From assembly GCA_013329045.1 (NCBI GenBank), contig DUKZ01000036.1, positions 1-32,579 on the forward strand: a DNA stretch of 32,579 nucleotides, given 5' to 3'. The stretch is from Candidatus Woesearchaeota archaeon (GTDB taxonomy: Archaea > Nanobdellota > Nanobdellia > Woesearchaeales > UBA9989). Below are positions 9,766 through 32,579 of the stretch, piece by piece (the stretch's first letter is position 1; each line of letters starts with the position of its first letter). The translations under genes and the position numbers were made by a program. Below the pieces are notes generated by a model. It saw nothing but the letters and a program-made list of their open reading frames with translations, had not been told where the DNA came from and did no database searches.

Positions 9766-9769
9766 GACA

Positions 9770-10768: not shown

Positions 10769-11614
10769 TTATTTTTCCTTATTTTTGTGGCTTAGTCTCT
10801 TTTGTCCCTCTGATTTCTCTAAGAAATTATCGCTTGAAACTACACTTTTGCCAAGCTTTTGTTCGATGTCTTTTCGTGTTGATCCAGCAACGTCTCCGCC
10901 GTCTTTTGCGTCTTTTTTGAGTCTTGGAAACTCTTTTGAGTCGCGTTCCCTTGTGAATCTGGTGGTTGTCGCTTCTCCAAGCATGGTGAGAATGATCTCT
11001 ATATCATCCATGTGATCTCTGAGGTTTTCTTTCTGCAACCCTTTGAATTTCTTGTATTCGTTTGGACCCATGCCAAAAGTTGCTTTTGATATCTCGGCTG
11101 TCAGGATTGCGTACTCTTTTTCTGTTTTAAGGCCTCTTTTACCCCATTCATTTGTGAGCTCATCTCGTATAGCTATCCCTCTAACCCTCTTCTCTATCCA
11201 TTCTTCAGAATATCCTTTGGACTTAAACAACCCTTTCATACGTTTTTGGGCTAATTCTGGATTTTCAATCTCTTTTACCCTATCATAGCCAACTTTTGCT
11301 AACCATAGCTTGAATGGCTCTGCTTTTGGAGATGGAATAGATTGAATAATCCTAAATGCGCCTTCTGTATTGACACAGTTTGTCTCTCTTTTTTTGCCAT
11401 CTGGTGCCAGAAGTTCAAGGGGGGTACAAATTGTACCCCAGTTGGCATTAAGTACAGGATCACGGCTTCGCATCTTCTTGACATATTGCTTAGGGTCAGC
11501 ACTGTCTGTTAGAACTGAGACTATGTCAAATACAGAGAACCACCACTCGTTATTGTGCCATGTCCTCCTGATGTTCTTTCCCTGAAAAACCACGATTGCG
11601 TTATTTGCGTCCAT
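10769..11614 (-). CDS. Bro-N domain protein, DinD-like
   Basis: This 281-aa protein begins with a Bro-N domain (about 5-110): IVVFQGKNIRRTWHNNEWWF, then VFDIVSVLTDSADPKQYVKK, CVNTEGAFRIIQSIPSPKAE and FKLWLAKVGYDRVKEIE. The C-terminal half (about 155-265) contains EISKATFGMGPNEYKKFKGL, RDHMDDIEIILTMLGEATTT and KDGGDVAGSTRKDIEQK, the DinD-like tail seen in chromosomal copies. Bro-N proteins are known from phages, baculoviruses and mobile elements as DNA-binding antirepressor-like proteins; DinD inhibits RecA in E. coli. It is the last gene of a tightly packed minus-strand unit, starting 2 bp after the 81-aa gene. Role here unknown; probable mobile or defence origin. Confidence 0.75.
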   Translation of the reverse strand: MDANNAIVVFQGKNIRRTWHNNEWWFSVFDIVSVLTDSADPKQYVKKMRSRDPVLNANWGTICTPLELLAPDGKKRETNCVNTEGAFRIIQSIPSPKAEPFKLWLAKVGYDRVKEIENPELAQKRMKGLFKSKGYSEEWIEKRVRGIAIRDELTNEWGKRGLKTEKEYAILTAEISKATFGMGPNEYKKFKGLQKENLRDHMDDIEIILTMLGEATTTRFTRERDSKEFPRLKKDAKDGGDVAGSTRKDIEQKLGKSVVSSDNFLEKSEGQKRLSHKNKEK

Positions 11615-14500: not shown

Positions 14501-14517
14501 AATCCTTTAAAAGGATT
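14501..14517 (-). terminator. palindrome serving as terminator and TATA box
   Basis: AATCCTTTTAAAGGATT on the minus strand overlaps the giant gene's stop and is followed by CTTCATTTTTCTTATTTT. It can fold as a 7-bp hairpin before a U-rich tract, and its TTTTAAAG core is at the TATA position (about -25) for the hydrolase gene at 14482. A dual role is inferred from position. Confidence 0.5.
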
Positions 14518-17500: not shown

Positions 17501-20500
17501 GAAATCCTCAGGTATTGTCATATCAGGAATTGGCTGGATGATTGGCGCATCATTTACCGGATTGATATGGATATTGAAGCTTGCCGGGAGAGAATCTGCC
17601 TGGCCATCATGCGCGAGGATAGTGCAGGACGAGGAACCAAAGAAGTTCTGGGCAGTGATCATCAAGAGGTTTGGCTGGATAATCTCACAATCCACCTTTG
17701 CCGGATCATCATTGACAACACTATATGTCAGAAAATCCCCATCCTCATCAAAAGAATAGAGGTCAAGATTGATCGTCTTGTTCATGTCCTCATCAAAGTA
17801 CTGGTCTGGGATGCTCAAGGTTGGAACATCATTCGTGTTCGTGATGGTCAACGTGAACACTGTCGATGAAGAGAGCTGGCCATCAGAAGCGCTGATCCTT
17901 ATATCATGGCTTCCAATGTCTGGCTGCCTGGGAGTAAAAGAGATAACACCCGTTACCGGGTTGATTGCGAATAACGAGGTGTTATCTGCATATGTTACCG
18001 AGTCTCCATCCACATCAGTGGCATTGACCCTCAATGTGAAAGGAGCGTCCTCTGGGATTGTGGTGTTAGGTATTGGCTGGATGATTGGCGCATCATTCAC
18101 CGGAAATATTGTTATCATGAATGAATCGGCAGACGAATTGTCTGACCCATCATGAGCGATGATGGTGCAGCTGGAGATGCCAAAGAAATTTTGTGCACCG
18201 GTAATTGTCAAGGTGCTTCCTGCGACCGTGCACTCAGCTTTGCTCATGTCCTTTGCTGTTATCTCATATGTCAGCAGGTCATTCTCCACATCACTGGAGT
18301 ATGCCGTAAGATTGACCATGATAGTGTCATCCTCATTGATGACCTGGTTTGGCACATCGATAATCGGCTTATCGTTCACGGGGTTTACTGTGACGGTGAC
18401 ATTGTTTGAGTCAGCGCTCAGGCCAGCTGGATCGTGCGCCGTGAAGATGAGATAGTCGATACCGTTGAAGTTGAGGTTTGGCGTTATGGTTGCCAAGGCT
18501 CCATTTATGGTGATAGTGAGATGCGCTGCATTGTTTGCTGTGTATGTCAATGGGTCATTGTCTGGATCGCTGAAGTGCCCTGCCAGATTGATGGTGAATG
18601 GTGTGTCTTCATCAGTTGTCTGGTCTGGTATCGGATTGCTTGCGTTGAAGACTGGAGCATCGTTTACGTTCTGGACAATTAGTGTATATGCCTGGGTTGC
18701 ATTCAACAGTCCATCAGTGACTATGATCCCTATAGTGTGCTGGCCAACATCTGCATTTGTTGGTGTCCATGAGATAAGTCCAGTGCCATTGTCGATGGTC
18801 ATCCCCGCTGGCGCCTGGGTCAGGAGATATGTCAAGAGCACAGAGTCGATGTCTGTTGCATCAATATCATACGTGTAGAGCAGGTCTTGTGTTGCGGTAG
18901 TGATCGGCACAGAGGTGATGATCGGCGCGTCATTGACTGGATTGACTGTAACAGTGACGTTGTTTGAGTCGGCTGTGAGTCCTGCTGGGTCATGAGCTGT
19001 GAACAACAGGTAGTCTACTCCAAAGAAGTCCTGTTCTGGGGTGATTGTTGCGATGTTGCCATTGATGGATACTGTGAGATGCGCTGCATTGTTTGCTGTG
19101 TATGTCAATGGGTCATTGTCTGGATCGCTGAAGTGCCCTGCCAGATTGATGGTGAATGGTGTGTCTTCATCAGTTGTCTGGTCTGGTATCGGATTGCTTG
19201 CATTGAAGACTGGAGCATCGTTTACGTTCTGGACAGTGATCGTGTAGCCCTGGGTGTCTGTGAGGAATCCATCACTCACGACAATTTCCACCTGATGCTG
19301 GCCAACGTCTGTATTTGCCGGTGTCCAAGTAATAATTCCTGTCAGGCTGTCTATTGCCATTCCTGCCGGCTGCTGTGTGAGAGTATAGACGAGGACTGCA
19401 TTGTCGACGTCTGTTGCATCAACATCATATGTGTAGAGCAGGTCTTGTGTTGCGATAGTGATCGGCACAGAGATGATGATCGGCGCATCATTGACCGGCG
19501 TGACTGTAATTTGGACAGTATTGCTATCAGTTGAGAGCTGGCCGTCTGAAGCGGTGAAAACAACTGAGGAATCACCAAAGAAATCAGGATTTGGCGTGAA
19601 TGTCGCACTGCTCCCCGCGATGGTGATAGTGATGTTCTCTGCTGCTGTATGGGTGAATGTCAATGGATCATTCTCCGGATCACTAAAGAAATTCGACAAA
19701 TTCTGCGTTATTGTTGTATCCTCAGAGAGAATAATTGGTGGAATGAGGGTTGCCCTTGGCGCATCATTTACCGGAGTGATAATGATTGCTATTGTTTCCA
19801 CGAGAGTATTCTCCGGATCATTGATCTGGAGGCTGCACTCGCCTGTCCCGCTAAAGTCTAGCGGCGGGGTGACTGTGAGCAAGGAGCCATTCAATGAGCA
19901 TGTTGCATTTTCCTCGCCGGTCACTGTGTACGTGATAGGGTCATTTTCCACATCAGATGTGTAGTCATCAAGGTCGACTGCCACAGGCGTGTCTTCTTGT
20001 GTTGTTATCGTCGTAAGATTGAAGATTGGCGCATCATTGACTGCTGTCACATTATACACTACCACATTTGAGGGAGTAAACCCTCCTCTTGTGTCATTCG
20101 CAAAGTATGTCACGGTAAATGTGCCAAAAAAGTCCTGTGCCGGTGTTACTGAAACGCTGCTGCCAATGATGGTGATTGTTGCAGAGGCTGTATCAGTGCT
20201 CGTATAAACAAGAACCGGATCATCGACATCAATAAAATGGTTGTTGAGATCCAACAATGACGTTGTGTCTTCATCCATCACCTGGTCTGGGATTGGCTGG
20301 ACGAGGACTGGCGGATCATTGATCTCATTGACATGGATGGGGACTGTTGCCTGGACAGAATCTGCCCCGTCAATGATTGAAATACTGCAGGCAGCATTCC
20401 CAAAGTAATCCTGCGCTGGACTAAGCAAGATGAGTTCTCCTACAATAGAACAATCCACCTGGCTTATGTTCTCCTGAACAATGCCATAGATAAATGAAGA

Positions 20501-23500
20501 GCTGTCCGGATCAATGATATCCTGGGTGATGTTGAATGATTCGGGAGTGTCCTCATCAATCTCATAGCGGGCCGTCCTATTATATATCGGCGGATCATTG
20601 ACATTGATGATGGTCAGGGTGAATGAGTCAGAGTCATTCAGCTCGCCGTCAGAGACAGTGATAATGATGCTATGGACCCCAACATCAGCATCATCTGGCG
20701 TAAAAGAAATGATGCCTGCCTCCTGGTCGATTGCGAAAAATGGGCTATCATCGCTGAACGTCAACACCGGGCTATCAATATCTGATGCATTGACATCATA
20801 AAGATACGCTTGATCCTCAAAGATGGTCTGATCAGGGATATCCTGCATGATTGGAGCGTCATTTACCGGGGTGACTGTGATGATAATGACCTCTGGCGGG
20901 CTGGTGGTTTCCGGGTCAGACACGGTGATTGTGCAAGAGCCCTCACCGTTGAAGTCATCCCCCGGATCTATCGATAGGATATCACCAGCAATGGTGCAAT
21001 TGACTCCTGGGGTCTGCTGCGTCACATTAAATATTAATGAGTCATTATCAGGATCTTGCGCATGGTCTGTCAAGTTAATGGTTGTGTTTGTGTCTTCTGG
21101 CAAAGTGACGTTATCAAGAGTTAGGATTGGCTGGTCATTGATATGGACAGATGCGGAATGGTTCGCTGAGCCCTCAACACCTGCTAAAGTGATACAGGAC
21201 ACACCCCAAATAAAATTGATATTGTCCGGAATATCCTGCCGGGTAAATGATCCTTCAGTGCTGTTTATGCCAAGGAGGAGGATTGTTTGCTCCTTCATGA
21301 AAGTGCCAGTAATAGATGTATATAATGAGCAGTTGGAGAGGCCGGCAGAAGCCGTTGCATTAAATGTGAAAGTCTCTGCTGGCAATGGGATAATTGCTCC
21401 ATCAGGAGGCGAGATCAACGTTACTTTTGGGGGATTCATATCAAGATTGTTGCTTTTGCCTTGCGTGCAAGCGCGCTTGATCCAATCATCCTTGTCGACA
21501 CCGGTGTCCTTGCCGTTTGGAAACCTGGCCTCGCATTCATCCTCGAGCCCGGTGGCATTCCCAAAAGGAGCATTGTCTGAAATGTTTCCATCAAACCAGG
21601 TGCCATATGTCACTTGGTCGACCACAAAACCAGTATCTGAAACTAACTGCATCTGGCCGGAGGTTGCAGCCTGGGCTCCAACTGGGTTTTGGATGATAAT
21701 ATACCCCTCTGGAGCAATGCTTCCGGAGAGAGTTTCTGTGCCAGGGGATGGATCGATCAATTCTACTTTCCATCCTTCAATACTGATCGGGAATGAGTTG
21801 TTGTTGTAAATCTCGATCCATTGATCATCTGCATTGATGATACTGTCATTATCCCAATCCTGCTGAGGGTCGACGACAAACTCATTGAGGACGATCTTTG
21901 GCGTGAGCGTTAAAGTGAAAGATTTTGAAACAACAGAGTGAGCGTCTGTGACTGAAACGGTGATCTGCCAGGTGCCAGACTCTTGCGGCTGGCTCTGGTA
22001 CGTGAAAGTATCATTGCTTACGCTGAACCTGGCATCGCTGATAGAAAAGGTCAAAGGATCGTTGTCGGCATCAAACGCGCTTGCATGAATTGTGACCAGG
22101 CTTCCTGCAGGCTGGGTGATATTTGGCAGCGGCTGGAGGATTGGCACATCATCGACTGGTGTCACGATGACCTGGAAAAAATTTGATGTTGCGCTGAGCG
22201 TGCCATCGGATGCGGTGATCCTGACTGCTTCGCTTCCGGAGAAATCCTGGTCTGCGCTCAATGTGGCGGTGTTGCCAGCAAAAATGAAATGGACATGGAC
22301 ATTGCCCTGGACTGTATAAGCGAGGATTGGATTGTCAATATCACTGAAATATGGCGTCAAATCAAGATTCTTTGTCGTATCCTCCGGGAATGTTTGGTCT
22401 GGAATATTCTGATTGAGGATTGGCCCGTCATTTACTGGTGTGATGGTGATATTCAATAGGCCATCTGCAAATGCCATCCCATCAGAAGCACGGATGGTGC
22501 ACCCCGCTGGACCATTATACTCTGGTGCTGGCGTTATTGTGAGAGATGAACCAGCTGCCTGGCATGCTGCCTTTGCTATGTCCTGAGCTATGACTGAAAA
22601 AGTGATTGGGTCATGCTCTACATCAAATGTGTACAAGAGCAGGTCAATTGTCTTTGGTGTGTCTTCAGGGGTTGTGACTGCCGGCAGGCTTATCGTCGGC
22701 GCGTCATTTACTGGTGTGACACTGAGCCCCACCAGGTTGCTTTGCACCTGGCCGCCATGATTGTCATTCGCAAGGAACCTGACTGTCCGATCACCAAAGA
22801 AATTTAGTCCTGGAGCAAAGGTGACAATGCTCCCAGTGATTGTCACGGTGATGTTCTGAGGCATCGCACCAACGACGCTATACACCAATGGATCCTGGTC
22901 CTGGTCACTGAAATAATTGCTGAGATTGATGCTTCTCAAGGTATCCTCTGGCCAGGTCTGGTTTGGGATGCTCTGATTGAGCGTTGGAATATCATTCACA
23001 TTCTGGATTGTGAGCTGGAAGATGCCGGTCGTTTGATTCGCGCCATCAGCGCAGCTAACAGCAACTGTATGAATACCAACATCACTATTTGTCGGCGTGA
23101 AAGATATCTGGCCTGTTGCGGGATTGATAGTGAAGAGTGGTGAAGCGTCGCTGTATGTGATGGGCTGTTGTTCCTTGTCATCACAATGGATGCTGTAAGT
23201 AAACAATGTGTCTTCTGTTGCTGTCTTTGCCGCCAATGGCGGACTGAAGAAAGGAACATCATTTACCGGCAGGACGGTTATTGTGAAATTCTGGCTTGTT
23301 GCATTCTTATGATCAGACACAGTTACCCTTCCCTGCTGGACCCCAAAATAATCCGCTGCCGGGAACACGTCAAGAAAAGGAGCATTGACTGCGAAAGACA
23401 GATTTGTCACCGGCTGGAATGACCAGGTCATGTTCGCTTCGACATCATCAACATCATTGACATATGGCAGCAGGTTCCTGTTTCTTATTGGAATGTCTTC

Positions 23501-24346
23501 TTCTAGCGTGAGGTCTGGAAAGGTGAGGATTGGGGGATCATTGACACAGTTCTGGTCAATATTATCATCCAGCTCTGTTGCATTTGGATGGATCGTGGCA
23601 TTGTTATCATTACAATCTACATCCTCCCTGAACCCATCACCATCCTTGTCATCACCAAATACTGCATAGCCGATGCAGTTCCTGATCAGGATCTCAGATG
23701 CTGGCGTCCAGAAATCGCTGTCCTGGATGCCATAGAAACATGCCCTGGCGTTTTCCTTTTTTCCGCCAATCAAGGTCGAACCTTTTGGAAAATGGCTGAC
23801 AAACGCATCGAAAGGGCCGAAATTATTGACTGCAACAGAAATATCAATGACTTCACTTGACGGCCGGTTGAGCCGATAGATATAGAATCCCTGAATGTTG
23901 ATCCCATAAGAGTCCTTGGCAGCGGTATATACATCAAAGGTGTCAAACAAGTTGAGGCCTGTTGTGATAGAATTGTTCTTTTCTACCCTTCCCCTGAGGG
24001 CCTGGCTGCTTGTGACAACGCTGATAGAATCGGCATAACCCCACACAGGGGCATCATACCTATTGGTTAAGATCAGGTTAAAATCATTCGCAGGGATCTG
24101 ATCATGGTTTGGAAAGTTCTCTGATCCAACGAAGATTGCTTCATACTGAGAAAAATCCGTCGATGGGACAGCGCTATAGATGATTGGCACAACACTCAAG
24201 CCCTGGTCCTCGAAGGCTTGCACGATATTCGGATCGATCCGAGAAAATTGGACATACAGATATGCAATCTGGCCAGGTGCTGCCGCTGCCATCAGAGGCA
24301 GCATGATGCTTGCGAGAAGCAAGATCAATAGTATGTGCTTTTTCAT
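14516..24346 (-). CDS. giant secreted cadherin-like repeat protein (3276 aa)
   Basis: A signal peptide (1-23, MKKHILLILLLASIMLPLMA then AAA) is followed by an unrecognised alpha/beta domain (about 25-230). Next is a MopE/thrombospondin-3-like calcium motif (232-267: DKDGDGFREDVDCND, then DDNIDQNC). About 29 cadherin-like repeats of 85-95 residues follow, each ending in V-N-D-A-P or similar and many with D-P-D-N-D-P calcium-type motifs. They alternate between an E-D-T-P (Big_9-like) form and a form with G-I-I-S-W-T-P (He_PIG-like). A lamin-tail domain interrupts the array at about 812-970 (VLNEFVVDP, QWIEIYNNN, IEGWKVELID). The C-terminal 110 residues resemble a CARDB-type domain. There is no C-terminal membrane anchor. 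N-x-S/T sites are frequent. It is probably an adhesin or a surface-layer stalk. Its ATG overlaps the stop of the membrane-anchored neighbour by 4 bp. Confidence 0.9.
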   Translation of the reverse strand: MKKHILLILLLASIMLPLMAAAAPGQIAYLYVQFSRIDPNIVQAFEDQGLSVVPIIYSAVPSTDFSQYEAIFVGSENFPNHDQIPANDFNLILTNRYDAPVWGYADSISVVTSSQALRGRVEKNNSITTGLNLFDTFDVYTAAKDSYGINIQGFYIYRLNRPSSEVIDISVAVNNFGPFDAFVSHFPKGSTLIGGKKENARACFYGIQDSDFWTPASEILIRNCIGYAVFGDDKDGDGFREDVDCNDNNATIHPNATELDDNIDQNCVNDPPILTFPDLTLEEDIPIRNRNLLPYVNDVDDVEANMTWSFQPVTNLSFAVNAPFLDVFPAADYFGVQQGRVTVSDHKNATSQNFTITVLPVNDVPFFSPPLAAKTATEDTLFTYSIHCDDKEQQPITYSDASPLFTINPATGQISFTPTNSDVGIHTVAVSCADGANQTTGIFQLTIQNVNDIPTLNQSIPNQTWPEDTLRSINLSNYFSDQDQDPLVYSVVGAMPQNITVTITGSIVTFAPGLNFFGDRTVRFLANDNHGGQVQSNLVGLSVTPVNDAPTISLPAVTTPEDTPKTIDLLLYTFDVEHDPITFSVIAQDIAKAACQAAGSSLTITPAPEYNGPAGCTIRASDGMAFADGLLNITITPVNDGPILNQNIPDQTFPEDTTKNLDLTPYFSDIDNPILAYTVQGNVHVHFIFAGNTATLSADQDFSGSEAVRITASDGTLSATSNFFQVIVTPVDDVPILQPLPNITQPAGSLVTIHASAFDADNDPLTFSISDARFSVSNDTFTYQSQPQESGTWQITVSVTDAHSVVSKSFTLTLTPKIVLNEFVVDPQQDWDNDSIINADDQWIEIYNNNSFPISIEGWKVELIDPSPGTETLSGSIAPEGYIIIQNPVGAQAATSGQMQLVSDTGFVVDQVTYGTWFDGNISDNAPFGNATGLEDECEARFPNGKDTGVDKDDWIKRACTQGKSNNLDMNPPKVTLISPPDGAIIPLPAETFTFNATASAGLSNCSLYTSITGTFMKEQTILLLGINSTEGSFTRQDIPDNINFIWGVSCITLAGVEGSANHSASVHINDQPILTLDNVTLPEDTNTTINLTDHAQDPDNDSLIFNVTQQTPGVNCTIAGDILSIDPGDDFNGEGSCTITVSDPETTSPPEVIIITVTPVNDAPIMQDIPDQTIFEDQAYLYDVNASDIDSPVLTFSDDSPFFAIDQEAGIISFTPDDADVGVHSIIITVSDGELNDSDSFTLTIINVNDPPIYNRTARYEIDEDTPESFNITQDIIDPDSSSFIYGIVQENISQVDCSIVGELILLSPAQDYFGNAACSISIIDGADSVQATVPIHVNEINDPPVLVQPIPDQVMDEDTTSLLDLNNHFIDVDDPVLVYTSTDTASATITIIGSSVSVTPAQDFFGTFTVTYFANDTRGGFTPSNVVVYNVTAVNDAPIFNLTTITTQEDTPVAVDLDDYTSDVENDPITYTVTGEENATCSLNGSLLTVTPPLDFSGTGECSLQINDPENTLVETIAIIITPVNDAPRATLIPPIILSEDTTITQNLSNFFSDPENDPLTFTHTAAENITITIAGSSATFTPNPDFFGDSSVVFTASDGQLSTDSNTVQITVTPVNDAPIIISVPITIATQDLLYTYDVDATDVDNAVLVYTLTQQPAGMAIDSLTGIITWTPANTDVGQHQVEIVVSDGFLTDTQGYTITVQNVNDAPVFNASNPIPDQTTDEDTPFTINLAGHFSDPDNDPLTYTANNAAHLTVSINGNIATITPEQDFFGVDYLLFTAHDPAGLTADSNNVTVTVNPVNDAPIITSVPITTATQDLLYTYDIDATDIDSVLLTYLLTQAPAGMTIDNGTGLISWTPTNADVGQHTIGIIVTDGLLNATQAYTLIVQNVNDAPVFNASNPIPDQTTDEDTPFTINLAGHFSDPDNDPLTYTANNAAHLTITINGALATITPNLNFNGIDYLIFTAHDPAGLSADSNNVTVTVNPVNDKPIIDVPNQVINEDDTIMVNLTAYSSDVENDLLTYEITAKDMSKAECTVAGSTLTITGAQNFFGISSCTIIAHDGSDNSSADSFMITIFPVNDAPIIQPIPNTTIPEDAPFTLRVNATDVDGDSVTYADNTSLFAINPVTGVISFTPRQPDIGSHDIRISASDGQLSSSTVFTLTITNTNDVPTLSIPDQYFDEDMNKTINLDLYSFDEDGDFLTYSVVNDDPAKVDCEIIQPNLLMITAQNFFGSSSCTILAHDGQADSLPASFNIHINPVNDAPIIQPIPDMTIPEDFLFMYDVNATDPDGDSLTFSDNTSLFAINQQTGVFSFTPTQDDVGPHDIKITVSDGRAQSLASFTLTVINTNDRPTIDVPDQQLTEDTPLSINISQSAFDQDNDPLMFIITATNAAKVDCTIAGDILTMTPALDFHGATACSIVADDGQLNSTVDSFQITVSNINDAPVFNASNPIPNQTTDEDTPFTINLAGHFSDPDNDPLTFTANNAAHLTVSINGNIATITPEQDFFGVDYLIFTAHDPSGLSADSNNITVTVNPVNDAPVIITAPITTATQSQLYTYDVNATDVDSPVLTYSRTVGPTGLIINSATGIISWTPTEQQIGQHQVEIVVSDGFLADTQDYTITVQNVNDAPVFNASHPIPNHTTFEDTPFEIHLDHHFYDPDNDPLTYTANNAAHLTVTFNGATATVTPEQDFFGVDYLIFTAHDPSGLSADSNNVTVTVLPVNDLPNITTQPPADDVSVGHSFVYDVNATDVDSPVLTFSLPVSPGGMTINPVTGIISWTPGDSDIGTNSVQVLVDDNDGGSDNQSFALIVHPVNRPPMFNASNPIPNQTTLEDTPFTLDLAPYFRDPDNDTLTFASTGETDMTITFAGSIATISPDQDFNGENQVTFSASDSQYTAFSNLVTITVLPVNDPPVIITAPLTTASQGVLYVYDVNATDVENDPITYSLVNKPAGMVIGSITGVITWTPTNADVGLHGVTVEADDNHGASALQAYTISVGNLNDPPILGPIDNITVRAGTFIKINATATDPDNDLLTFHYTAPFNQQGEWQTLLTDKGVFNVTVSVTDGIFTDSQLVIVTVIGENTIPQFGPMRELIIVTAGETVTIPVDVLDQDGDPLTVHISEPVGDDGIWVTTDANIGRHEVLVTATDGVHTIVKEILIIVLERPSEDLRITRTAQTKEYVKAGEGFVTFITAENFGTMDSKNVHFSAVIMELGTKAHTERVNIKENHEQTVPLKIAIPRGVPPGQYTIRITVSDDALRRVIHRDIIVTK
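16156..16453 (-). repeat. internal repeat copy, encodes NNAAHLT-type domain
   Basis: This is one of four roughly 300-bp sequence-similar copies within the giant gene (with 16713-17010, 18371-18677 and 18922-19235). All encode a domain with TANNAAHLT and DYLIFTAHDP or close variants. This is the most diverged of the four at DNA level. Confidence 0.75.
16713..17010 (-). repeat. internal repeat copy, encodes NNAAHLT-type domain
   Basis: This second copy of the family is closer to the 18922-19235 copy than to 16156-16453. It shares long stretches such as CTACTCCAAAGAAGTCCTG (plus-strand reading). Confidence 0.75.
18516..18677 (-). repeat. 162-bp block nearly identical to 19074-19235
   Basis: By direct comparison this block and 19074-19235 differ at a single base, a G/A within GC(G/A)TTGAAGACTGG, over 162 bp. 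Offset is 558 bp, exactly two protein domains. Both encode the same 54 residues from the NVNDAPVFNASNP linker through TANNAAHLT. Confidence 0.9.
19074..19235 (-). repeat. 162-bp block nearly identical to 18516-18677
   Basis: This is the partner copy. Sequence on either side diverges much more, so the identity is confined to this block, as expected after recent gene conversion or slippage. Confidence 0.9.
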
Positions 24347-25053
24347 AGTCTCATCATCAACCAGATAAGGATGCCGATAATGATTGCAATGATTCCGATA
24401 ACGAGAGCAATCAAGGGGCCCTTATTGGATCTTTTTGGTGCAGTTGCGGTAGCGGGAGCATCATCTCCCGCAATTCTAAATCCAAATTTGTTGGCAAGCT
24501 TGCCAATAGCAGAATCACCCTTTTGTTCTTCCTCTTGAACATTATCCTCTTGAACATTATTTTGCGTCTCTATGTCTTTTGGGAGGTATTGGCCAATTTC
24601 CTCTTCATACCAGTCTGGTATCGCTGTCTTGTCCGGGTTTTCCGGGCCTGTTGCAAAGATAATGATATGGGATGAGAGGCCAACGCCAGCACCGCCAAAT
24701 GTCTGCTCTCCTGGGACAAAGCCGATATTGATCATACCATCATAATTCCCGCCATAGTCCAGACGGACGCGAAATCGCGCCAGCTTCTTTTCTCCCGGCT
24801 GGAGAATGAAATCATTGTCGATTATCCTGGTAATATACTCTAGATCGTTGATCGCATTCATGTGGACTTTTACTGCAATATCATTGACATTATTGATGAT
24901 GAGCTCCTTTTCGACGTATGTTGGCGTGCCTTCTATGACATCAGCATTGAGGATCATCTTTGCATTGCCGATGGATGCGGTGAGAGCGAATGCGCTTGTT
25001 GCACAGAAGAGTATTGTGATGAAAAACAAAACCGGCGTAATCGATCTTTTCAT
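24343..25053 (-). CDS. membrane-anchored exported protein coupled to giant gene
   Basis: This 236-aa protein is read from ATG 25053 (MKRSITPVLFFITILFCATS), which follows a GGGGGGG ribosome site; an in-frame ATG 51 bp further upstream is less likely. A signal peptide (1-23) is followed by an Ig-like beta domain (about 25-135: VEKELIINNVNDIAVKVHMN, ILQPGEKKLARFRVRLDY), a type often seen as archaeal surface-assembly or chaperone-like domains. Then come an acidic Q/N/E linker with an internal duplication (NNVQEDNVQEEE) and one C-terminal membrane helix (about 212-234, LIALVIGIIAIIIGILIWLM). The stop overlaps the ATG of the giant gene (ATGA). It may tether or assemble the giant protein at the membrane; this is inferred. 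Confidence 0.7.
   Translation of the reverse strand: MKRSITPVLFFITILFCATSAFALTASIGNAKMILNADVIEGTPTYVEKELIINNVNDIAVKVHMNAINDLEYITRIIDNDFILQPGEKKLARFRVRLDYGGNYDGMINIGFVPGEQTFGGAGVGLSSHIIIFATGPENPDKTAIPDWYEEEIGQYLPKDIETQNNVQEDNVQEEEQKGDSAIGKLANKFGFRIAGDDAPATATAPKRSNKGPLIALVIGIIAIIIGILIWLMMRL
24531..24560. repeat. 15-bp perfect tandem duplication
   Basis: CCTCTTGAACATTAT occurs twice in tandem (24531-24545 and 24546-24560). On the minus strand it encodes the doubled NVQE(D/E) of the acidic linker. In-frame expansion of a linker is the simplest reading. Confidence 0.9.
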
Positions 25054-25082
25054 GCAACCCCCCCACAATGATGTTATTATAT

Positions 25083-25140
25083 AGTGAATACTTACTAGTA
25101 TCACTACTGAATAAGGAAATAACTGTGAGAGCTATTTAAA
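25083..25140 (-). promoter_or_regulatory. promoter and inverted repeat of giant-protein operon
   Basis: TTTAAATAG at 25132-25140 is a TATA-like site for the two-gene unit starting at 25053. Between it and the gene lies AGTGAATAC...GTATCACT (25083-25091 with 25098-25105), an 8-bp inverted repeat with one extra base, which may be an operator or leader hairpin. A second TATA-like CTATATAAT (about 25077-25085) overlaps its edge, so the start site is uncertain. The 25141-25286 part of the gap shows no gene. Confidence 0.4.
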
Positions 25141-25286: not shown

Positions 25287-28200
25287 CTACTGCACGGTAA
25301 ACGCGATTTGGCTTTGGACACTATTCCCCACCTTATCTTCTGCTGTGAAGATGATTGTGTGGTTGCCAAGGGAGAATGTCCTCTTCGCATTATACGTATC
25401 ACAAGATGAGCAGAGCTTCTTTGCCGCATCTGCGTCCACTGCCATTGTTACCATTGCCTTCTCATCAAGCAGGAAACTTATCGGGACACTTGTTCCATTT
25501 ACCGCTGAAGCGTTTATGGGTGAAAACAAGGTAAAAATCGGCGGCATGTTATCGATGGTCAATGTTTGGATCTTTGATTGAGCAGTTGAGGGGACATCCC
25601 CCAGCTCGAACTGGTAATTCACCGTGATGCCATGGAACGCTGAGAGATCAACGAGCAGGGAACATGATTGTTTTGTTCCACTCTGGCAGACCATAGGCAT
25701 TGTCACCAGGTTTGATTGGTTCCAAATCTTCAACAGGGCTGATTGAAGATTGTTTTCGGTGTAGATAACAGTGAAATTGACGATGCCCTGCGTGGCTGCT
25801 TTGTCACGGGGGAACATCTTTATAATGTTTGGCGGGGTGGAATCTACTGATAATGGGATGAGTGCTCCAGTGGAAAATCCTGAAGGATCTGTTGCCTCTA
25901 GGGTGATATTATACTCCCCATCCCTCAAGGAGAGGGACTTATTGTACGCACCACATTTTGTGCACAGAACTCTTTGCCTCGCACCATTGACAGATGCTTT
26001 CAAGGTTACTGGCTCTGAAAGGGTGAGGATGATTGGCACATTTCTAGTGCCATAGACCATCATTGTTGGCTCCAGGATCGAAAGGAATATTGGTGCTGAT
26101 GCATCGACGGAAAATGTTGTTATTTTTGAGATATCCATTGATCCTGCACTGTCTTCTATAGTGAAAAAGTATTCAACATTGTTGTTATTCAATACTGAAA
26201 GGTCCTGAACAATTGAGCACTTCATGTTCGTGCCTGAAGGACAGATAAGGGGAACAGTCAGAGCTGTCAATGGGTCAGAGGCATTTAGCCCATACGTCAA
26301 GGTTACCTGCTGAACGTTTTCTTCCTTATAGGTAACGGTGAAATTGACAAGTGATTGTTCTTTGCTGTCCTTTGCCGGGGATGTCTTTGTGATCTTTGGA
26401 GGGTTTGCGTCAATGCTAAACGCGATGGTATTGTTTGAACGATGGCCTGCTCCATCTTCAGCGATGAAGGTCATATTGTAATTGCCATCGTTGAGGGTGA
26501 CTATTCGTGATTCTGCATCGCAGGATGAACAGAGTCTTTGTTCTCTTCCCTCGTTGATGATCATTGAGAGGAGAACATTTTCTGAGACTACCACATCTAA
26601 AGGAATTCTCCTGCTGTTGTAGATGATGTTTTGCGGCTGATTTACTGTGATGACTGGCGTTGATGTGTCAACTGAGAGTGTTGTTATGTCAGACCATGCC
26701 TGGTTGCCGGCGATATCTTCAATGAAGAACTGGAACTCTACCTCTTGACCTGCAAATGCAGTCAAGTCTGTCTCCTGGCCGCAGAATTGGTTTTTTCCAC
26801 TAAGACAGGAAAGGGAAGAACTGAGCCTTGTAGCATTGTCAGAAACATTTACTCCATAATAGAGGGTTACTATCTGAACATTTTCTTCTGAATACTTCAT
26901 GCTGAGATTTGTTCCTGTGACAATTGTTCCATCTGCTGGCATGAGGAGGTGGATGATCGGATCGGTTGCGTCAACGAAGAAATTGATTATTTGCGTTTCT
27001 GTATTGCCTATGCCGTTTCTCGCAGTGATGTTGAGAGAATGGGAACCATCGGCAAATGTAATCGTTCTGTTGAGGAACATGCACTCACTGCAATATAAAA
27101 CCGGGCTTTTTGCGTCAATGCTTGCATATAATGAAACATTCTTTTGTGTTGTGACAAGAAGAGAGATTTTTGGGGTATTATAATTCATGTTTTGCGGTTT
27201 TTGCACAATCATGTTTATTGGTGTTGTTGTCTCGACGGTAAAGGTCCAGGAGAACGTATTAGCATTCCCGCACTCATCGATAAGAGATATGTTGACTGCA
27301 TGGACACCATCACTTAGGTTTGAGGAAGGATAAAAGTATATCAGGTTGTTCTTCCTTCCTGTGAATGCGGTGATATCCACACCATTGAAAAACATCCTTA
27401 CCATTGACCAATTAACACCAGAACCAAAATTGTTGATATCAGTTAATTCAACGGAGATATTTGGCCGGGCATTTGCTATTGTGCTCTGGTTTGCCGGATA
27501 CAAATTTGTTCCGATTGGCCTTGTCGTGTCAACGAATAAGGTGATATTCTGGCTTGGCTCGAGCAGCGATGTCGAGGCATTGAATGTTATGTTTAAGAAC
27601 CAATGAAGGTATGTATTCATGTCTGTGACGTTAAAAGCTCCTGAATATATTTGGTTAGGGTGACTGTTTGTTCTATAATACACTTGTCCCGAGCTTCCAG
27701 GGTCAGGAGTGAAAATGATGAAGGGGCTGGAATTATAGCAGTGATCCAGTCCTGTTGGCGCTGGAGGAATAAGCTGAATCTGGGTTCTGAAGGTTGTGGA
27801 AAAGTTTTGTGCTCCTGAGTTGGCAAGGTTTCCTGCACGGTCAGATGCATACCATGTCCATGAAACTGATTCACCATCATTAATGAAATCATGACTCATC
27901 TCATAGTACCATTCACTGGTGTGATTTTGCGGAGTAAAATTTTGCAGTGAGCCATTCCAGCTGCCGATAACAATAATTGTTGAAGGGTCAAGGAAGGAAT
28001 CGTTAATCGTGGCATTGATTATGGCATCAGTCACATTGAAGATGAGATGGGGTGTGTGGTCTAAGTTGGAAAAAACCGGAGCAACATTATCCAGAGTAAC
28101 ATTGAATTCCTGGACAACACTCAATCCAGAACCAGTCTCTGCGGCAATGATACGTATTGTCTTGTTGCCATCAGCAGCTGAAAGGACGATAGTATAGTTT

Positions 28201-28451
28201 AATGTGTACGTGCCATCACCATTATTGAGCATTGCGACAGGCGCTACGACACCAGCCTCAATTTCTGTTACATTTCCTGCAACGGTGTAATTATTCTGGT
28301 TCCAGCGCGACAGGATGTGGACCCCGGGGTCATTGTTCCCATACATGGTGTCGCTGTCGTATGTTTGAACAGAAACAGGAACAGGAAGAGCATTGATAGC
28401 TGCTGCTAAGAGCACGATAACCATTGCTAGCAAAATAATCTTTCTTTTCAT
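25287..28451 (-). CDS. secreted Ig-like protein with ABABABA cysteine modules
   Basis: This 1054-aa protein is read from ATG 28451 (MKRKIILLAMVIVLLAAAIN), preceded by GAGGGG with 7-base spacing; an in-frame ATG at 28466 would give an ATGA overlap with the upstream gene. A signal peptide is followed by about 400 residues of Ig/Ig-like domains rich in N-x-S/T sites. Then comes an array of seven modules in strict alternation. Module A has a CxxC (CSEC, LCSSC, LCTKC, LCSSC) followed by a D-G-x-H/Y-x-I/M strand and D-x-x-G-x. Module B has a spaced cysteine pair (CLSGKNQFC, CPSGTNMKC, CQSGTKQSC) followed by D-L-S-x-x. There is no C-terminal membrane segment. It is closely linked to the 175-aa exported protein. 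Likely a cell-surface structural or adhesion protein; family not named. Confidence 0.8.
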   Translation of the reverse strand: MKRKIILLAMVIVLLAAAINALPVPVSVQTYDSDTMYGNNDPGVHILSRWNQNNYTVAGNVTEIEAGVVAPVAMLNNGDGTYTLNYTIVLSAADGNKTIRIIAAETGSGLSVVQEFNVTLDNVAPVFSNLDHTPHLIFNVTDAIINATINDSFLDPSTIIVIGSWNGSLQNFTPQNHTSEWYYEMSHDFINDGESVSWTWYASDRAGNLANSGAQNFSTTFRTQIQLIPPAPTGLDHCYNSSPFIIFTPDPGSSGQVYYRTNSHPNQIYSGAFNVTDMNTYLHWFLNITFNASTSLLEPSQNITLFVDTTRPIGTNLYPANQSTIANARPNISVELTDINNFGSGVNWSMVRMFFNGVDITAFTGRKNNLIYFYPSSNLSDGVHAVNISLIDECGNANTFSWTFTVETTTPINMIVQKPQNMNYNTPKISLLVTTQKNVSLYASIDAKSPVLYCSECMFLNRTITFADGSHSLNITARNGIGNTETQIINFFVDATDPIIHLLMPADGTIVTGTNLSMKYSEENVQIVTLYYGVNVSDNATRLSSSLSCLSGKNQFCGQETDLTAFAGQEVEFQFFIEDIAGNQAWSDITTLSVDTSTPVITVNQPQNIIYNSRRIPLDVVVSENVLLSMIINEGREQRLCSSCDAESRIVTLNDGNYNMTFIAEDGAGHRSNNTIAFSIDANPPKITKTSPAKDSKEQSLVNFTVTYKEENVQQVTLTYGLNASDPLTALTVPLICPSGTNMKCSIVQDLSVLNNNNVEYFFTIEDSAGSMDISKITTFSVDASAPIFLSILEPTMMVYGTRNVPIILTLSEPVTLKASVNGARQRVLCTKCGAYNKSLSLRDGEYNITLEATDPSGFSTGALIPLSVDSTPPNIIKMFPRDKAATQGIVNFTVIYTENNLQSALLKIWNQSNLVTMPMVCQSGTKQSCSLLVDLSAFHGITVNYQFELGDVPSTAQSKIQTLTIDNMPPIFTLFSPINASAVNGTSVPISFLLDEKAMVTMAVDADAAKKLCSSCDTYNAKRTFSLGNHTIIFTAEDKVGNSVQSQIAFTVQ

Positions 28452-28462
28452 TCTTTGACCCC

Positions 28463-28990
28463 TCATTGAACCTTAAACGAATCTATGACCATATCTTCAA
28501 TAAACACCTCATCGACAGCAACATCGATCTTATTGTTGTCGAGCGTGATCGTGAAATCTGTTTTCTGCCTAACATTGACTGGCGCCATGCTGTTTGAAAA
28601 GCCCCAAATATGCTCGCCATTCTCATCTACTCCAAGGATGATCCTTTTTCTCACCGGGCTGAGCTGATATGACAAGGTGGCCTGTCCAGTGACACTTGGC
28701 TGGTCAATCTCGCAAGGCATGTTGAGCTTTCCCTGCATCTTGAGCTTAGCCTTATTGCCATCCATGTCGCGCGCCTCCTTGACATTGACGAGAACATACC
28801 CATAACAAGTATCCCCCTGCTTTCGGACATCTATCCTCATTAGAGCATCCCTGGACTCGTATGTTCTGTCCTGAAAATGAAGCGTCCCGCCAGAGCCGGT
28901 AATCATTGCCTTTGACGGAATGTTTGCTGCTGCTACCATCAGCAGAAATAAGCTTAATAGATATAAAGTCAGTACCCTCTTTTTCACCAC
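28463..28990 (-). CDS. small exported protein of 175 aa
   Basis: The start is GTG 28990, with GGAGGT six bases upstream (28998-29003). A signal peptide (about 1-22, KKRVLTLYLLSLFLLMVAAA) precedes about 150 residues that look beta-rich (TGSGGTLHFQDRTYES, DTCYGYVLVNVKEARD, VTGQATLSYQLSPVRKRIIL, IDVAVDEVFIEDM). Two cysteines (near 62 and 93) could form a disulfide. No family recognised. It precedes the 1054-aa Ig-like protein by 11 bp (or overlaps it by 4 bp with the alternative start), so the two are co-translated. The same layout, small exported protein then large repeat protein, is seen in the giant-protein operon. Confidence 0.7.
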   Translation of the reverse strand: MVKKRVLTLYLLSLFLLMVAAANIPSKAMITGSGGTLHFQDRTYESRDALMRIDVRKQGDTCYGYVLVNVKEARDMDGNKAKLKMQGKLNMPCEIDQPSVTGQATLSYQLSPVRKRIILGVDENGEHIWGFSNSMAPVNVRQKTDFTITLDNNKIDVAVDEVFIEDMVIDSFKVQ

Positions 28991-29047
28991 TTTTATACCT
29001 CCACCTAGGGAGTGATCCCTCTTTTTGGGTACTCTTTAGTGGAGACG

Positions 29048-29056
29048 CTATAAAAG
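29048..29056 (-). promoter_or_regulatory. TATA-like element of 175-aa/1054-aa operon
   Basis: CTTTTATAG on the minus strand lies about 60 bp before GTG 28990. This leaves a leader of some 35 nt that contains the GGAGGT ribosome site and a small AGGGA-TCAC-TCCCT hairpin (about 29007-29020). Confidence 0.45.
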
Positions 29057-29111
29057 TATTATGTTTTGTTTTTAAAGCTGTAGCTAGTTGTCCCATGGTG
29101 GTTACAGAGGT

Positions 29112-29165
29112 AAAAAGTCCAATGGGTGGTAGCCTTTCGCCACCAATCCGCCACCGGGCTACCAC
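29112..29165 (-). terminator. hairpin terminator after 718-aa gene
   Basis: On the minus strand a perfect 9-bp stem, GTGGTAGCC with GGCTACCAC (29157-29165 with 29126-29134), is followed by TTTTT at 29116-29112. The loop carries a doubled GGTGGCG-type motif. It is 17 bp after the stop of the 718-aa gene. Confidence 0.6.
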
Positions 29166-29181
29166 GAGGACTCTTCACCAT

Positions 29182-31338
29182 TTAGGAAACGGTGAATGTG
29201 ATGTCTCGGGTTATCTCATTTCCTCCCTTATCGATTGCATGAACGGTAATATGCTGCGGGCCAGCCCTGAACACGATCGTTTTTGAAACGGTATTACAGC
29301 TGGTGCACAGCCTTGTTTCCCTGCCTTTAACAAAGTCATAATAGGAAACTTCTGAGTTTTCTGACAATGTGAGGCTGAGGGGGACCCTCATGCTGTAGGA
29401 CTCGCCTGAGACTGGACTTGCAAATGAGGTGAACTCTGGAGGAATCTGGTCTATACCATACGTGACTGGTCTTGATATTGCGCTATCACCAAACCTGTCT
29501 TTTATTTCTACACTCGCAGTGATGCTGGTCTGGCCAGCTATCCTTGAACTAACATCTAACGCGCAGGACTGCTTTTGGCCTGCAGGACAGGAGGTGAATG
29601 AGTAATCGCCTATATTGCTGATATGGACAATCGCTTCAGTTAACGTGTCTTCATCATATTCCACAGTGAAGATGCCGTTTGTCTCACCCCTCCTTGGCTC
29701 GACTGATTTGATCTTTGGCTTCTTTGTATCAACAATGAAGTCAGCCGGCATCGTCATCTTGTTGCCTGCCTTGTCTTCTGCAATAATTGTTAATTGGTGA
29801 TGGCCATCAATGAAGGTGACAACCTTGTTGTATTCAGTGCACCTAGTGCAGAGGCGCTTTTCCTTCCCATCCTCCAGGTAGTACATCGTTGATTCCTCAT
29901 CTACTTTGATGAAGACAGGAATGCGCTTATCCTGATAGTATGAAGAGAATGGGGTGTAATCGATCAACGTTGGAGCGGTTGTGTCAACAATGACTGTCTG
30001 GGGCCTTGACGCGCTGGAACTGACATGGTCCCTGATTTCGAAGTAGTATGAGATAGTCTGGCCTTCAAATGCGGAAAGGTCAGCTGCCAACGTGCATTCC
30101 TGGTTTCCCTTGCCGATCGGGCAGGATGATGACTCGAGCTGGTTGGTGTATGAAGATACGCCGAACTTGAGGAAAACATCAGCCGCCTGCTCTTCCTGGT
30201 ATGCGACAAGGAAGCTTGCGCCATCAGTGTAAGAGCCATCCCTTGGGAAAGCAGACCTGATCTTTGGAGGCTTTGTATCAACGGAAAAGGACTGCAATGC
30301 AGTTGCCACAACCTGGCCGCTAGTTACAGATTGGACAGTGACTGTATGCCCGCCATCCTGGACGGAGAGTGTTTTTGTTCCTTCAGCACAGTTACTGCAC
30401 AGGCTTCTGAAAGGAGCGTCATCAAGAGCGTAATTGATCTGGTCAACAATGGTGTTTGCCAATACTTCCAGACTGATAGATTTTGTGTCATACCACTGGT
30501 TTTTAGGGTTGATTATTGTTAAAGGTGAAGTTGCTTTTTCGACATCAATTGTTGCTGAGTAGAAGTCTGATTGAATTTCACTTGCACCGTCTGAAATGGA
30601 AAAGTAAAATTCGATGTTTGACTTGTCCGGGAAAGGCAAATCGACAACCTGGGAACAGGATACTTCGCTGCCCCTTGGGCAGTTTTGAAGGGTGACTGTG
30701 GTAGTTGCGCCGCCAACCTGCCTATAATAGAGCTTGATTGCTGTAGGATTGGTTTCCGTGTATGTTAAGGTGAACTTATCATTTGTGCCGTTGAGGTATG
30801 CGCCATTCCTTGGTGAGATACCCAAGATTACAGGCACTTTGGTGTCTATATAGAATGTGATGTTGGCATATCCAACGTTAAGGGAACGATCAGTTCCTTT
30901 GAGAAGGATATTCTGGGTGCCATCACCCATGTTGAAGAATTGGCGTTCATAATTCTTGCAGCTTTGGCAAAACTTCCTATAGGTGCCGCCGTTGACTGAA
31001 TATAAAAGTTCTGCTACTGTCTCAGACATTCTTACACTGACGGTGACGTCATCGTTTGCGAGGACTGCGCCTTGTGCTGGCTGGGTGATATTGATTTGTG
31101 GGGGCAGTTGGTCAACAGTGCCGCCATTTCCTTGGCACCCATTTGAAGGAGAACATAACGGAGTGTCTAAACATTCCCTAAATGTGCAGATATCAAGGTT
31201 GCAGGTTGATGTACATGTTGTTCCAGATTGGGTGCATGTCCAGCACGGTTTTGGTGGAACGACCGCGTTTGATATGAGTGACAAACTCGTGATACTGATG
31301 ATAACTATGAGCATGAATACTGCTAATTTTGGTTTCAT
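29182..31338 (-). CDS. secreted cysteine-rich Ig-like protein, ABABABA array
   Basis: This 718-aa protein has a good start: ATG 31338 after GGGGGGA. A signal peptide (about 1-25) is followed at 32-70 by a cysteine-rich segment with eight cysteines (CWTC, TTC, STC, DIC, REC, PLC, NGC). The rest is seven Ig-like modules in the order A-B-A-B-A-B-A, the same order as in the 1054-aa protein. The A modules have FCQSC, LCSNC, LCTRC and LCTSC. The B modules have CPRGSEVSC, CPIGKGNQEC and CPAGQKQSC. The A motifs are followed by D/A-G-x-H/Q-x-I/V and then D-x-x-G-N. There is no transmembrane anchor. It has its own hairpin terminator. Likely secreted or surface-bound; function unknown. Confidence 0.75.
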   Translation of the reverse strand: MKPKLAVFMLIVIISITSLSLISNAVVPPKPCWTCTQSGTTCTSTCNLDICTFRECLDTPLCSPSNGCQGNGGTVDQLPPQINITQPAQGAVLANDDVTVSVRMSETVAELLYSVNGGTYRKFCQSCKNYERQFFNMGDGTQNILLKGTDRSLNVGYANITFYIDTKVPVILGISPRNGAYLNGTNDKFTLTYTETNPTAIKLYYRQVGGATTTVTLQNCPRGSEVSCSQVVDLPFPDKSNIEFYFSISDGASEIQSDFYSATIDVEKATSPLTIINPKNQWYDTKSISLEVLANTIVDQINYALDDAPFRSLCSNCAEGTKTLSVQDGGHTVTVQSVTSGQVVATALQSFSVDTKPPKIRSAFPRDGSYTDGASFLVAYQEEQAADVFLKFGVSSYTNQLESSSCPIGKGNQECTLAADLSAFEGQTISYYFEIRDHVSSSASRPQTVIVDTTAPTLIDYTPFSSYYQDKRIPVFIKVDEESTMYYLEDGKEKRLCTRCTEYNKVVTFIDGHHQLTIIAEDKAGNKMTMPADFIVDTKKPKIKSVEPRRGETNGIFTVEYDEDTLTEAIVHISNIGDYSFTSCPAGQKQSCALDVSSRIAGQTSITASVEIKDRFGDSAISRPVTYGIDQIPPEFTSFASPVSGESYSMRVPLSLTLSENSEVSYYDFVKGRETRLCTSCNTVSKTIVFRAGPQHITVHAIDKGGNEITRDITFTVS

Positions 31339-31460: not shown

Positions 31461-32579
31461 TAGATTGCTTCGCCCCAGAAGAACAAGCTACCGTCGCTGA
31501 AATCGCCGTTGCATGGTTCTGGCAATGCCAACTTGAAGGTCAAGCTGATATCTGCGCCAGGTGTCAAGACGTTTCCTGCGAAGTATTCTGTACCGCCGAG
31601 GTTAATTTCTCCAGCATCTGGTGTAGCATCTCCTAAAGTTCCAGCACTCGTTGAAATGATAGGTGCTCTGTCTTCTGGTGTTCCAGTCTCATATGGAATA
31701 CCGACATATCCTTCAGCATCGTCCCTGTCATCATCGTTTCCAGTCTGATATGCACCATTTGTTGCGAAATAACAGAGGTGGTCAACACCAGTTGCTCCAT
31801 CAGTACCATCAACAGCAAGGTCACCATCCTGGTCGCAGACAAACTGATCGCCTATGGTCATAGTTCCAAGGTCACCTGCAGGGAAATCATGTTCATAAAC
31901 ACCTTCCGTTCCACCGTTGTTCAACCTGAGCACGTTGCTCACTGGGCATTTGCTTCCCTGTGATGCTGGGTCGAAGAAATCTGTTCCAGAGATCATCATG
32001 TCCAAAAGGACACCAGATCCAGCTTCAACGTCGTTGGTGATTCTTAAGGTGTCAGAGTAGGAAACTGTTCCTGGCCTGACTTCGTCACCGAAATCGACAG
32101 TGCCATCAATGGAGATAGCCACTTCAGGGTTGAAGAACCAGTATTCGTTCTCGTCGAAAGTTGCGAGGAGGCCGTCAAGGTCTTCTACTTCAGCAACAAC
32201 CCAGTATTCACCTTGCATGCTGAGTGGGGTTTCAACTGTTAAAGTGCACGTATATGTTGCCATGGTATCTGCATCAAACTCTTCGATGACTTCCTCATCA
32301 ATTCGAGCATTCCAGAATGTATCAAGTGCATCACCATCTGCATAGATCGCTGTAAGGTCACAATTTGCTTCGACATCATTGCCTTCGCCCTGTGTTACGC
32401 CAAGGGTGACACGAACATCTGAGATTTTCTCGATGCCGTTTTTGTCCCAGACAAGGACATCCCAGACAATCTGCTCTCCTTCGAAAGCGTAGTTGTTCAC
32501 TCGCTCAACTGCTTCGGCAGAGCCGTCCTGAGGATTCCTGGTTAGAATCCGAGACTCTGGATTCATCCAAATCCTTGGG
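31460..32579 (-). CDS. acidic S-layer-like secreted protein, N-terminus cut off
   Basis: At least 373 codons are open to the window edge. The first ATG (32566) is probably internal, because the sequence before it (PRIW) reads on as protein. The product is strongly acidic, with Asp/Glu-rich stretches such as DQDGDLAVDGTDG and NDDDRDDAEG. It has beta-type repeats (ERVNNYAFEGEQIVWDVLVW, then DKNGIEKISDVRVTLG; VSYSDTLRITND). Archaeal proteins with the motif NYAFEGEQI-x-W-x-V-L-V-x-D-K-N-G are familiar to me from DPANN genomes as abundant surface-layer-like proteins. That is recall, not checked. It may bind calcium. It ends in a strong terminator. Confidence 0.6.
   Translation of the reverse strand, partial: PRIWMNPESRILTRNPQDGSAEAVERVNNYAFEGEQIVWDVLVWDKNGIEKISDVRVTLGVTQGEGNDVEANCDLTAIYADGDALDTFWNARIDEEVIEEFDADTMATYTCTLTVETPLSMQGEYWVVAEVEDLDGLLATFDENEYWFFNPEVAISIDGTVDFGDEVRPGTVSYSDTLRITNDVEAGSGVLLDMMISGTDFFDPASQGSKCPVSNVLRLNNGGTEGVYEHDFPAGDLGTMTIGDQFVCDQDGDLAVDGTDGATGVDHLCYFATNGAYQTGNDDDRDDAEGYVGIPYETGTPEDRAPIISTSAGTLGDATPDAGEINLGGTEYFAGNVLTPGADISLTFKLALPEPCNGDFSDGSLFFWGEAI

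Follow-up and report, generated by a model that had tools for sequence, protein, structure and literature searches.

Alternating immunoglobulin-like modules as a candidate C-terminal display tail, linked to a conserved secreted protein, in DPANN archaea

Previous work showed that several surface-layer (S-layer) proteins are rows of immunoglobulin (Ig)-like domains, with seven such domains in the Deinococcus HPI protein (PMC12175726), six in that of M. hungatei (PMC11641113) and ten in that of N. maritimus (PMC11153153). A different arrangement is found in the SlaA/SlaB S-layers of Sulfolobales, in which a canopy is paired with a stalk or anchor. In Bacteroidetes, varied secreted passengers of the type IX secretion system (T9SS) carry an Ig-fold C-terminal domain (CTD) that serves surface placement (PMC4804311). 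For DPANN archaea, a 2024 cryo-electron tomography study noted that no S-layer structure had been solved from any member (PMC11329633). Here we analyse two secreted proteins, P1 and P2, of a Candidatus Woesearchaeota archaeon (UBA9989, Woesearchaeales), together with the secreted protein S, encoded directly upstream of P2. The genes lie on a stretch of 32,579 nt (contig DUKZ01000036.1, assembly GCA_013329045.1), called the window below. P1 and P2 both end in an array of two module types, A and B, in strict alternation.

These arrays resemble the tandem-Ig S-layer proteins (H. volcanii csg, N. maritimus NmSLP, M. hungatei Mhun_2263, D. radiodurans HPI) in being exported rows of Ig-like domains in the envelope, with an N-terminal hydrophobic signal followed by the Ig row. 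They differ in having two strictly alternating module types, each with a cysteine pair, placed C-terminally on varied proteins; in lacking a terminal membrane helix; and in being linked to a separate conserved protein, S. With the T9SS CTD they share the position of an Ig-fold module at the C-terminus of unrelated passengers, and by analogy they may work like it. The CTD, however, is one domain, is cleaved by PorU and belongs to export across an outer membrane (PMC4804311), whereas the arrays have three to seven modules and are archaeal, and they are not members of that family. SlaA and SlaB offer the precedent of an abundant lattice protein with a spacing or anchoring partner, and P2 with S might by analogy work alike, but no sequence relation was detected and P2 lacks a C-terminal membrane anchor.

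Module arrays of P1 and P2

An earlier note on this DNA had described seven modules in the same order at the ends of both proteins. Open reading frames (ORFs) and profile matches confirmed this description: both end A-B-A-B-A-B-A, giving eight A and six B modules, and the final module runs to the stop codon (Table 1). A second ATG at codon 6 of the P1 frame would shorten that protein to the 1054 amino acids (aa) of the earlier note. The window modules scored 86-103 bits (A) and 99-121 bits (B) with the first profiles, which were built including these modules, and 68-89 bits with profiles rebuilt on all relatives. Two more array proteins, a 1375-aa frame on contig C5 and an 826-aa frame on contig C52, both ending ABA, bring the total in this genome (G000; 1.74 Mb, 55 contigs, 90% complete) to four. 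Because mean pairwise identity is 25% for A and 31% for B, means that include these two further proteins, the modules are old repeats and not recent copies. The motifs listed in the earlier note held at the cysteines and loosened around them. C-x-x-C is present in all eight window A modules, but the preceding Leu in six (Tyr and Phe in the others) and strict D-G-x-H in only three; C-x-x-G-x(4-5)-C is present in all six B modules, but the Pro in four and D-L-S in three.

The fold of the modules was predicted with AlphaFold2 for the B2-A3 unit of P2, from an alignment of 26 related units. The model has a mean predicted local distance difference test score (pLDDT) of 96.6 and consists of two all-beta sandwiches. 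Its Foldseek matches were fibronectin type III (FN3) pairs (CbhA, 3pdd), many Ig tandems and the bacterial Ig-like (BIg) rows of the SiiE adhesin, and because of the modelled sandwiches and these matches A and B are both assigned, as predicted structures, to Ig/FN3-type modules. A sequence search of the PDB with B-A gave weak BIg matches only. The earlier note could assign the modules to no named domain. This stands for B, which had no match in the Pfam scan, but not for A, the C-terminal part of which matches Big_13 (PF19077) and Glucodextran_B (PF09136), with partial matches to Big_7 as well. A has the Ig fold of the first two families and their C-terminal hairpin motif, D-G-x-(H/Y)-x-I-T-x-x-A-x-D-x-A-G-N, but the match is confined to roughly the final third to half of each profile, and neither B nor the A-B alternation is covered. 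P1 (73.5 bits) and P2 (29.8 bits) pass the Big_13 cut-off of 27 bits, but their best stretches span only model positions 51-102 and 70-102, and that of P1 (residues 363-413) precedes the array. NCBIfam matches were below the cut-offs, with Ca_tandemer (NF033510) at 20.7 and 17.5 bits vs 50. In sum, A borders a named Ig family, and B has no Pfam family of its own.

Table 1. Array proteins, their modules and other genes of the cluster in the window
Feature	Position	Strand	Residues (aa)	Description
S gene	31463..32578	-		conserved secreted protein, directly upstream of P2; 5' end lost at contig end 32579
P2	29182..31338	-	718	ORF; secreted: signal peptide, Cys-rich short segment (aa ~26-75), ABABABA to stop
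P2 module A1	30835..31101	-	80-168	profile match
P2 module B1	30526..30834	-	169-271	profile match
P2 module A2	30268..30525	-	272-357	profile match
P2 module B2	29974..30267	-	358-455	profile match; in AlphaFold2 model of B2-A3
P2 module A3	29719..29973	-	456-540	profile match; in AlphaFold2 model of B2-A3
P2 module B3	29440..29718	-	541-633	profile match
P2 module A4, C-terminal	29185..29439	-	634-718	profile match reaching stop codon
175-aa secreted protein	28463..28990	-	175	between P2 and P1; 4-base overlap with P1 start; family in clusters of G003, G096 and G241
P1	25287..28466	-	1059	ORF; secreted: signal peptide, Ig-like N-terminal part, C-terminal ABABABA
P1 module A1	26961..27221	-	416-502	profile match
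P1 module B1	26658..26960	-	503-603	profile match
P1 module A2	26400..26657	-	604-689	profile match
P1 module B2	26094..26399	-	690-791	profile match
P1 module A3	25833..26093	-	792-878	profile match
P1 module B3	25542..25832	-	879-975	profile match
P1 module A4, C-terminal	25290..25541	-	976-1059	profile match reaching stop codon
253-aa protein	24343..25104	-	253	signal peptide, predicted extracellular domain, C-terminal membrane helix (hydropathy); candidate membrane anchor of cluster
Giant secreted protein	14516..24346	-	3276	Lamin Tail domain (LTD), ~28 Big_9/cadherin-like and several He_PIG repeats (Pfam); 4-base overlap with 253-aa gene

Distribution of the arrays and of protein S

Profile searches covered 353 genomes of the same order and a 371-genome sample of the phylum. 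A strong match was defined as E < 1e-20, a cut-off chosen after a gap in the scores had been seen; weaker matches were mostly A-like Ig domains. Strong matches were found in 13 genomes of the order and 28 of the phylum sample. When the loci were fetched and scored with A and B profiles rebuilt on relatives, 81 array proteins with 285 modules (177 A, 108 B) were found, in two orders of one class. Their architecture is (AB)nA with n = 1-3, and most arrays with both ends intact read ABA (42), ABABABA (9) or ABABA (8). This architecture is not a product of chance, since 81 proteins from related genomes share it and B-B neighbours occur in none of them. The final module is an A ending 0-6 residues from the stop codon in 71 of the 74 proteins with an intact C-terminus. 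The search with A and B profiles and the structure prediction had both been suggested in the earlier note, whose picture of an exported family of surface modules that alternate strictly and conserve their cysteine pairs is supported and extends to other genomes of the class. A contig search with P2 as the single query returned only distant Lachnospiraceae Ig repeats, and no relatives of S or P2 were present in the viral contigs searched.

The segments ahead of the tail include a lipase-like alpha/beta-hydrolase, a right-handed beta-helix, LTD, and PA14-like, thrombospondin-3 and MopE-like segments, and several array proteins are little besides a signal peptide and ABA. By hydropathy, 68 of the 72 proteins with a complete N-terminus have a hydrophobic stretch there and no other; that is, the terminal membrane helix of several archaeal S-layer proteins is absent from them. 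Because the passengers vary and these 68 have no further hydrophobic stretch, the tail is the sole common part of otherwise different exported proteins without a membrane anchor. The earlier note, written from the window alone, had recognised neither this use on many passengers nor the tie to S. P1 orthologues differ in length and in array (n = 1-3), and P1 residues 39-673 show N-terminal homology to a 688-aa protein of genome G005. Some P1-type proteins have an extra, weakly A-like Ig domain ahead of the array, often without the cysteine pair. P2 orthologues in other genomes, with three, five or seven modules, lie directly downstream of the S gene. A module was most similar to the module in the same position in 95 of 224 A comparisons (chance 0.25) and 56 of 168 B comparisons (chance 0.33), and within-protein similarity points to repeated duplication of the AB unit in some lineages. 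A specialised terminal A was considered and is unsupported, the position-specific orthology of the modules being weak.

Two side observations concern individual array genes. The P2 gene of G005 (L041, G005:C67, 2536-4139) is in two overlapping frames between A1 and B1, by either a frame change or an assembly error. Lipase-like alpha/beta-hydrolases with a C-terminal A-B-A (or B-A) were seen at L042 (G005:C65), L200 (G419:C72) and L196 (G469:C14), and are possible surface lipases of small-genome archaea.

Complete relatives of S have about 345-400 aa, begin with a signal peptide and end in FWGEA[IV] or similar; S of the window is 57-66% identical to the nearest of them. One complete S is encoded at G005:C67, 1359-2480. 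No relative of the S family was found in Pfam, NCBIfam or the PDB. The AlphaFold2 model of S is of moderate quality (pLDDT 77.5) and beta-rich; when viral and PDB libraries were searched by fold with it, nothing convincing was matched. A similarity of S to TasA/camelysin-type fibre proteins was considered and dropped, as that family was not listed in a Pfam scan of 17 S members.

The occurrence of S follows that of the arrays. S is present in 27 of the 371 phylum-sample genomes, some of which have as many as five matches (G230, G237); 26 genomes have both S and arrays, two arrays only, one S only and 342 neither. In the 353 genomes of the order, S and arrays are each in 13 genomes, 11 of which have both, leaving two with arrays only and two with S only. 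Fisher p-values for the co-occurrence, which ignore shared ancestry, are 1.6e-36 (phylum sample) and 2.7e-17 (order). Most positives of the phylum sample are from three families outside the order, and those of the order are scattered over many families. The genomes with one partner include incomplete ones (G303 at 66%, G262 at 77%, G231 and G470 at 85%). Further, of the 34 genomes that have S, 27 have an array gene within 1 kb downstream of it on the same strand. S exceeds the remaining ORFs of its loci in codon bias in 27 of 31 genomes (Wilcoxon p 4.5e-5); array genes show no such difference (14 of 28). As a weak proxy for expression, the stronger bias of S would fit an abundant S and arrays that are not abundant.

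A candidate display tail and its alternatives

We propose that (AB)nA is a C-terminal surface-display, or anchoring, tail, held at the cell via a layer likely formed by S; we judge the chances for and against this to be about equal. A broader proposal, which we make more tentatively and at somewhat less than even chances, is that the two form an undescribed DPANN envelope system in which abundant S would be the surface layer and (AB)nA a dedicated modular docking tail for enzymes and adhesins that lack a membrane anchor. These proposals draw on what was computed: the fold, the alternation, the C-terminal position, the varied passengers, the lack of further membrane helices, the joint occurrence and gene adjacency of arrays and S, and the paired gain and loss of cysteines. 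The disulfides, the role of S as a subunit of the surface layer and its binding by the tail are inferred. Tailed proteins would be exported through the Sec signal peptide, and the tail would fold into a stiff row of three, five or seven Ig/FN3-like sandwiches, each pinned by one short-range disulfide. The row would bind the S layer, so that the passenger would stay in the cell envelope without a membrane anchor, and the membrane-anchored 253-aa protein would possibly tie the layer to the membrane. P2, nearly all tail and presumably made together with S, would be the core stalk or linker of the layer, and P1 and the other tailed proteins (lipase-like, beta-helix, LTD, MopE-like) would be its clients. 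The number of AB units would set the reach, each added unit shifting it by two modules while A stays at both ends.

The chief alternative is that the array proteins, P2 and P1, are themselves the lattice subunits, with S an accessory or second component. The Ig-like rows of known S-layer proteins are comparable to the up to seven modules of P2, and P2 is encoded with S and found in nearly all genomes that have S. Against this, relatives have arrays of anything from three to seven modules but a well-conserved S, the codon bias of array genes is not raised as that of S is, and tails are carried by unrelated enzymes. P2, moreover, lacks a membrane anchor and any recognised anchoring domain, and we regard arrays as the lattice as unlikely. 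A further alternative, to which we give slightly less weight still, is that the arrays are adhesin stalks of an ectosymbiotic archaeon for host contact, the alternation giving only length and stiffness. Tandem Ig rows in other DPANN giant proteins have been proposed to bind hosts (PMC10266531), the BIg rows of SiiE are among the fold matches, and a giant adhesin-like protein is encoded in the same cluster. In an adhesin, however, the row usually lies between anchor and tip, whereas these rows close the protein at its C-terminus and no anchor follows them, and a stalk would leave the tie to S and the enzyme passengers unexplained.

The earlier note left disulfide cross-links and metal binding as alternatives for the cysteines. 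Cysteine count is even in 172 of 177 A and 107 of 108 B modules. The spacing of the A pair is two in most modules and otherwise three, five, seven or eight, and A modules that follow a B outside the order mostly have x7. In the three f102 genomes examined (G373, G377, G404) A modules lack both cysteines, not one, and the extra cysteines of some A modules arrive as a second pair. The His of D-G-x-H is not conserved, and that motif is an ordinary Ig hairpin motif. Because the cysteines come and go in pairs, their spacing varies and the His is unconserved, a disulfide is favoured over metal, with one short-range disulfide per module as the preferred reading. A zinc site would keep its spacing and require further ligands. 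That the cysteines bind zinc or iron, or serve as extracellular redox CxxC sites, we consider improbable. CxxC is common as a zinc-knuckle and thiol-redox motif, and there were sub-threshold Pfam zinc-finger matches (zf-C17orf113, 24.0 bits vs a cut-off of 29.5), but in place of four conserved ligands at fixed spacing each module has two cysteines, with no conserved third ligand, at spacings of 2-8, and the two of a pair are lost together; an Ig sandwich is predicted, not a thioredoxin or treble-clef fold. The CxxC of the CD3 epsilon stalk is a case of comparably unsettled chemistry, with an intrachain disulfide as the favoured hypothesis (PMC2776832). This genome encodes a DsbA-like protein (Thioredoxin_4, E 1e-38), and in 40 genomes neither VKOR nor Thioredoxin_4 presence separates array carriers from others. 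Least probable of all is that these are ordinary bacterial-type Ig repeats, spread by duplication and with no common specific function: A partly matches Big_13 and AB units have been duplicated within proteins in some lineages, but such repeats would not be expected to alternate strictly, to come in odd numbers at a fixed C-terminal position or to accompany S almost one to one in a set of 371 genomes.

Several points weigh against a disulfide-pinned display tail held by S. The case for tail-S binding is computational, and the S model matches no known S-layer fold. One related group (f92, f102, f106) accounts for much of the co-occurrence, so that the Fisher p-values overstate independence. Three array proteins end in B: a G003 protein of 651 aa, after which none of the frames encodes an A, a fragment in G055, and a G513 protein with 81 unassigned residues after the B. 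Both A-module cysteines lie in one predicted strand (model residues 135-151), where a CxxC disulfide would require a local bulge. No VKOR match was found in this genome, and several array genomes have no Dsb-like protein or only a weak one.

The gene cluster and the DPANN cell surface

S, P2, the 175-aa secreted protein, P1, the 253-aa protein and the giant multi-Ig protein form a row on the minus strand. The same gene order is found in G096 and on two contigs of G003, and partly in G005 and in genomes outside the order. At least ten genomes of the cluster set have a member of the 253-aa family, and the one here is the obvious candidate for a membrane link. No membrane helix was seen in the giant protein beyond its N-terminus; in G003, G005 and G055 the 253-aa gene is followed downstream by partial relatives of the giant protein. 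Elsewhere in the window, reading of the sequence gave the impression of a BRO-N/KilA-type antirepressor-like gene (10769-11614, minus strand) amid housekeeping genes, perhaps a mobile-element remnant, and adjacent genes at 8770-10582 (plus strand) resemble dihydrodipicolinate synthase and reductase (DapA/DapB).

S and the tail provide a concrete candidate for the way in which the small, mostly uncultured and often ectosymbiotic DPANN cells build and decorate their surface. The tail marks probable surface clients across two orders, and may be used as a sequence tag for listing the surface proteins of these genomes.

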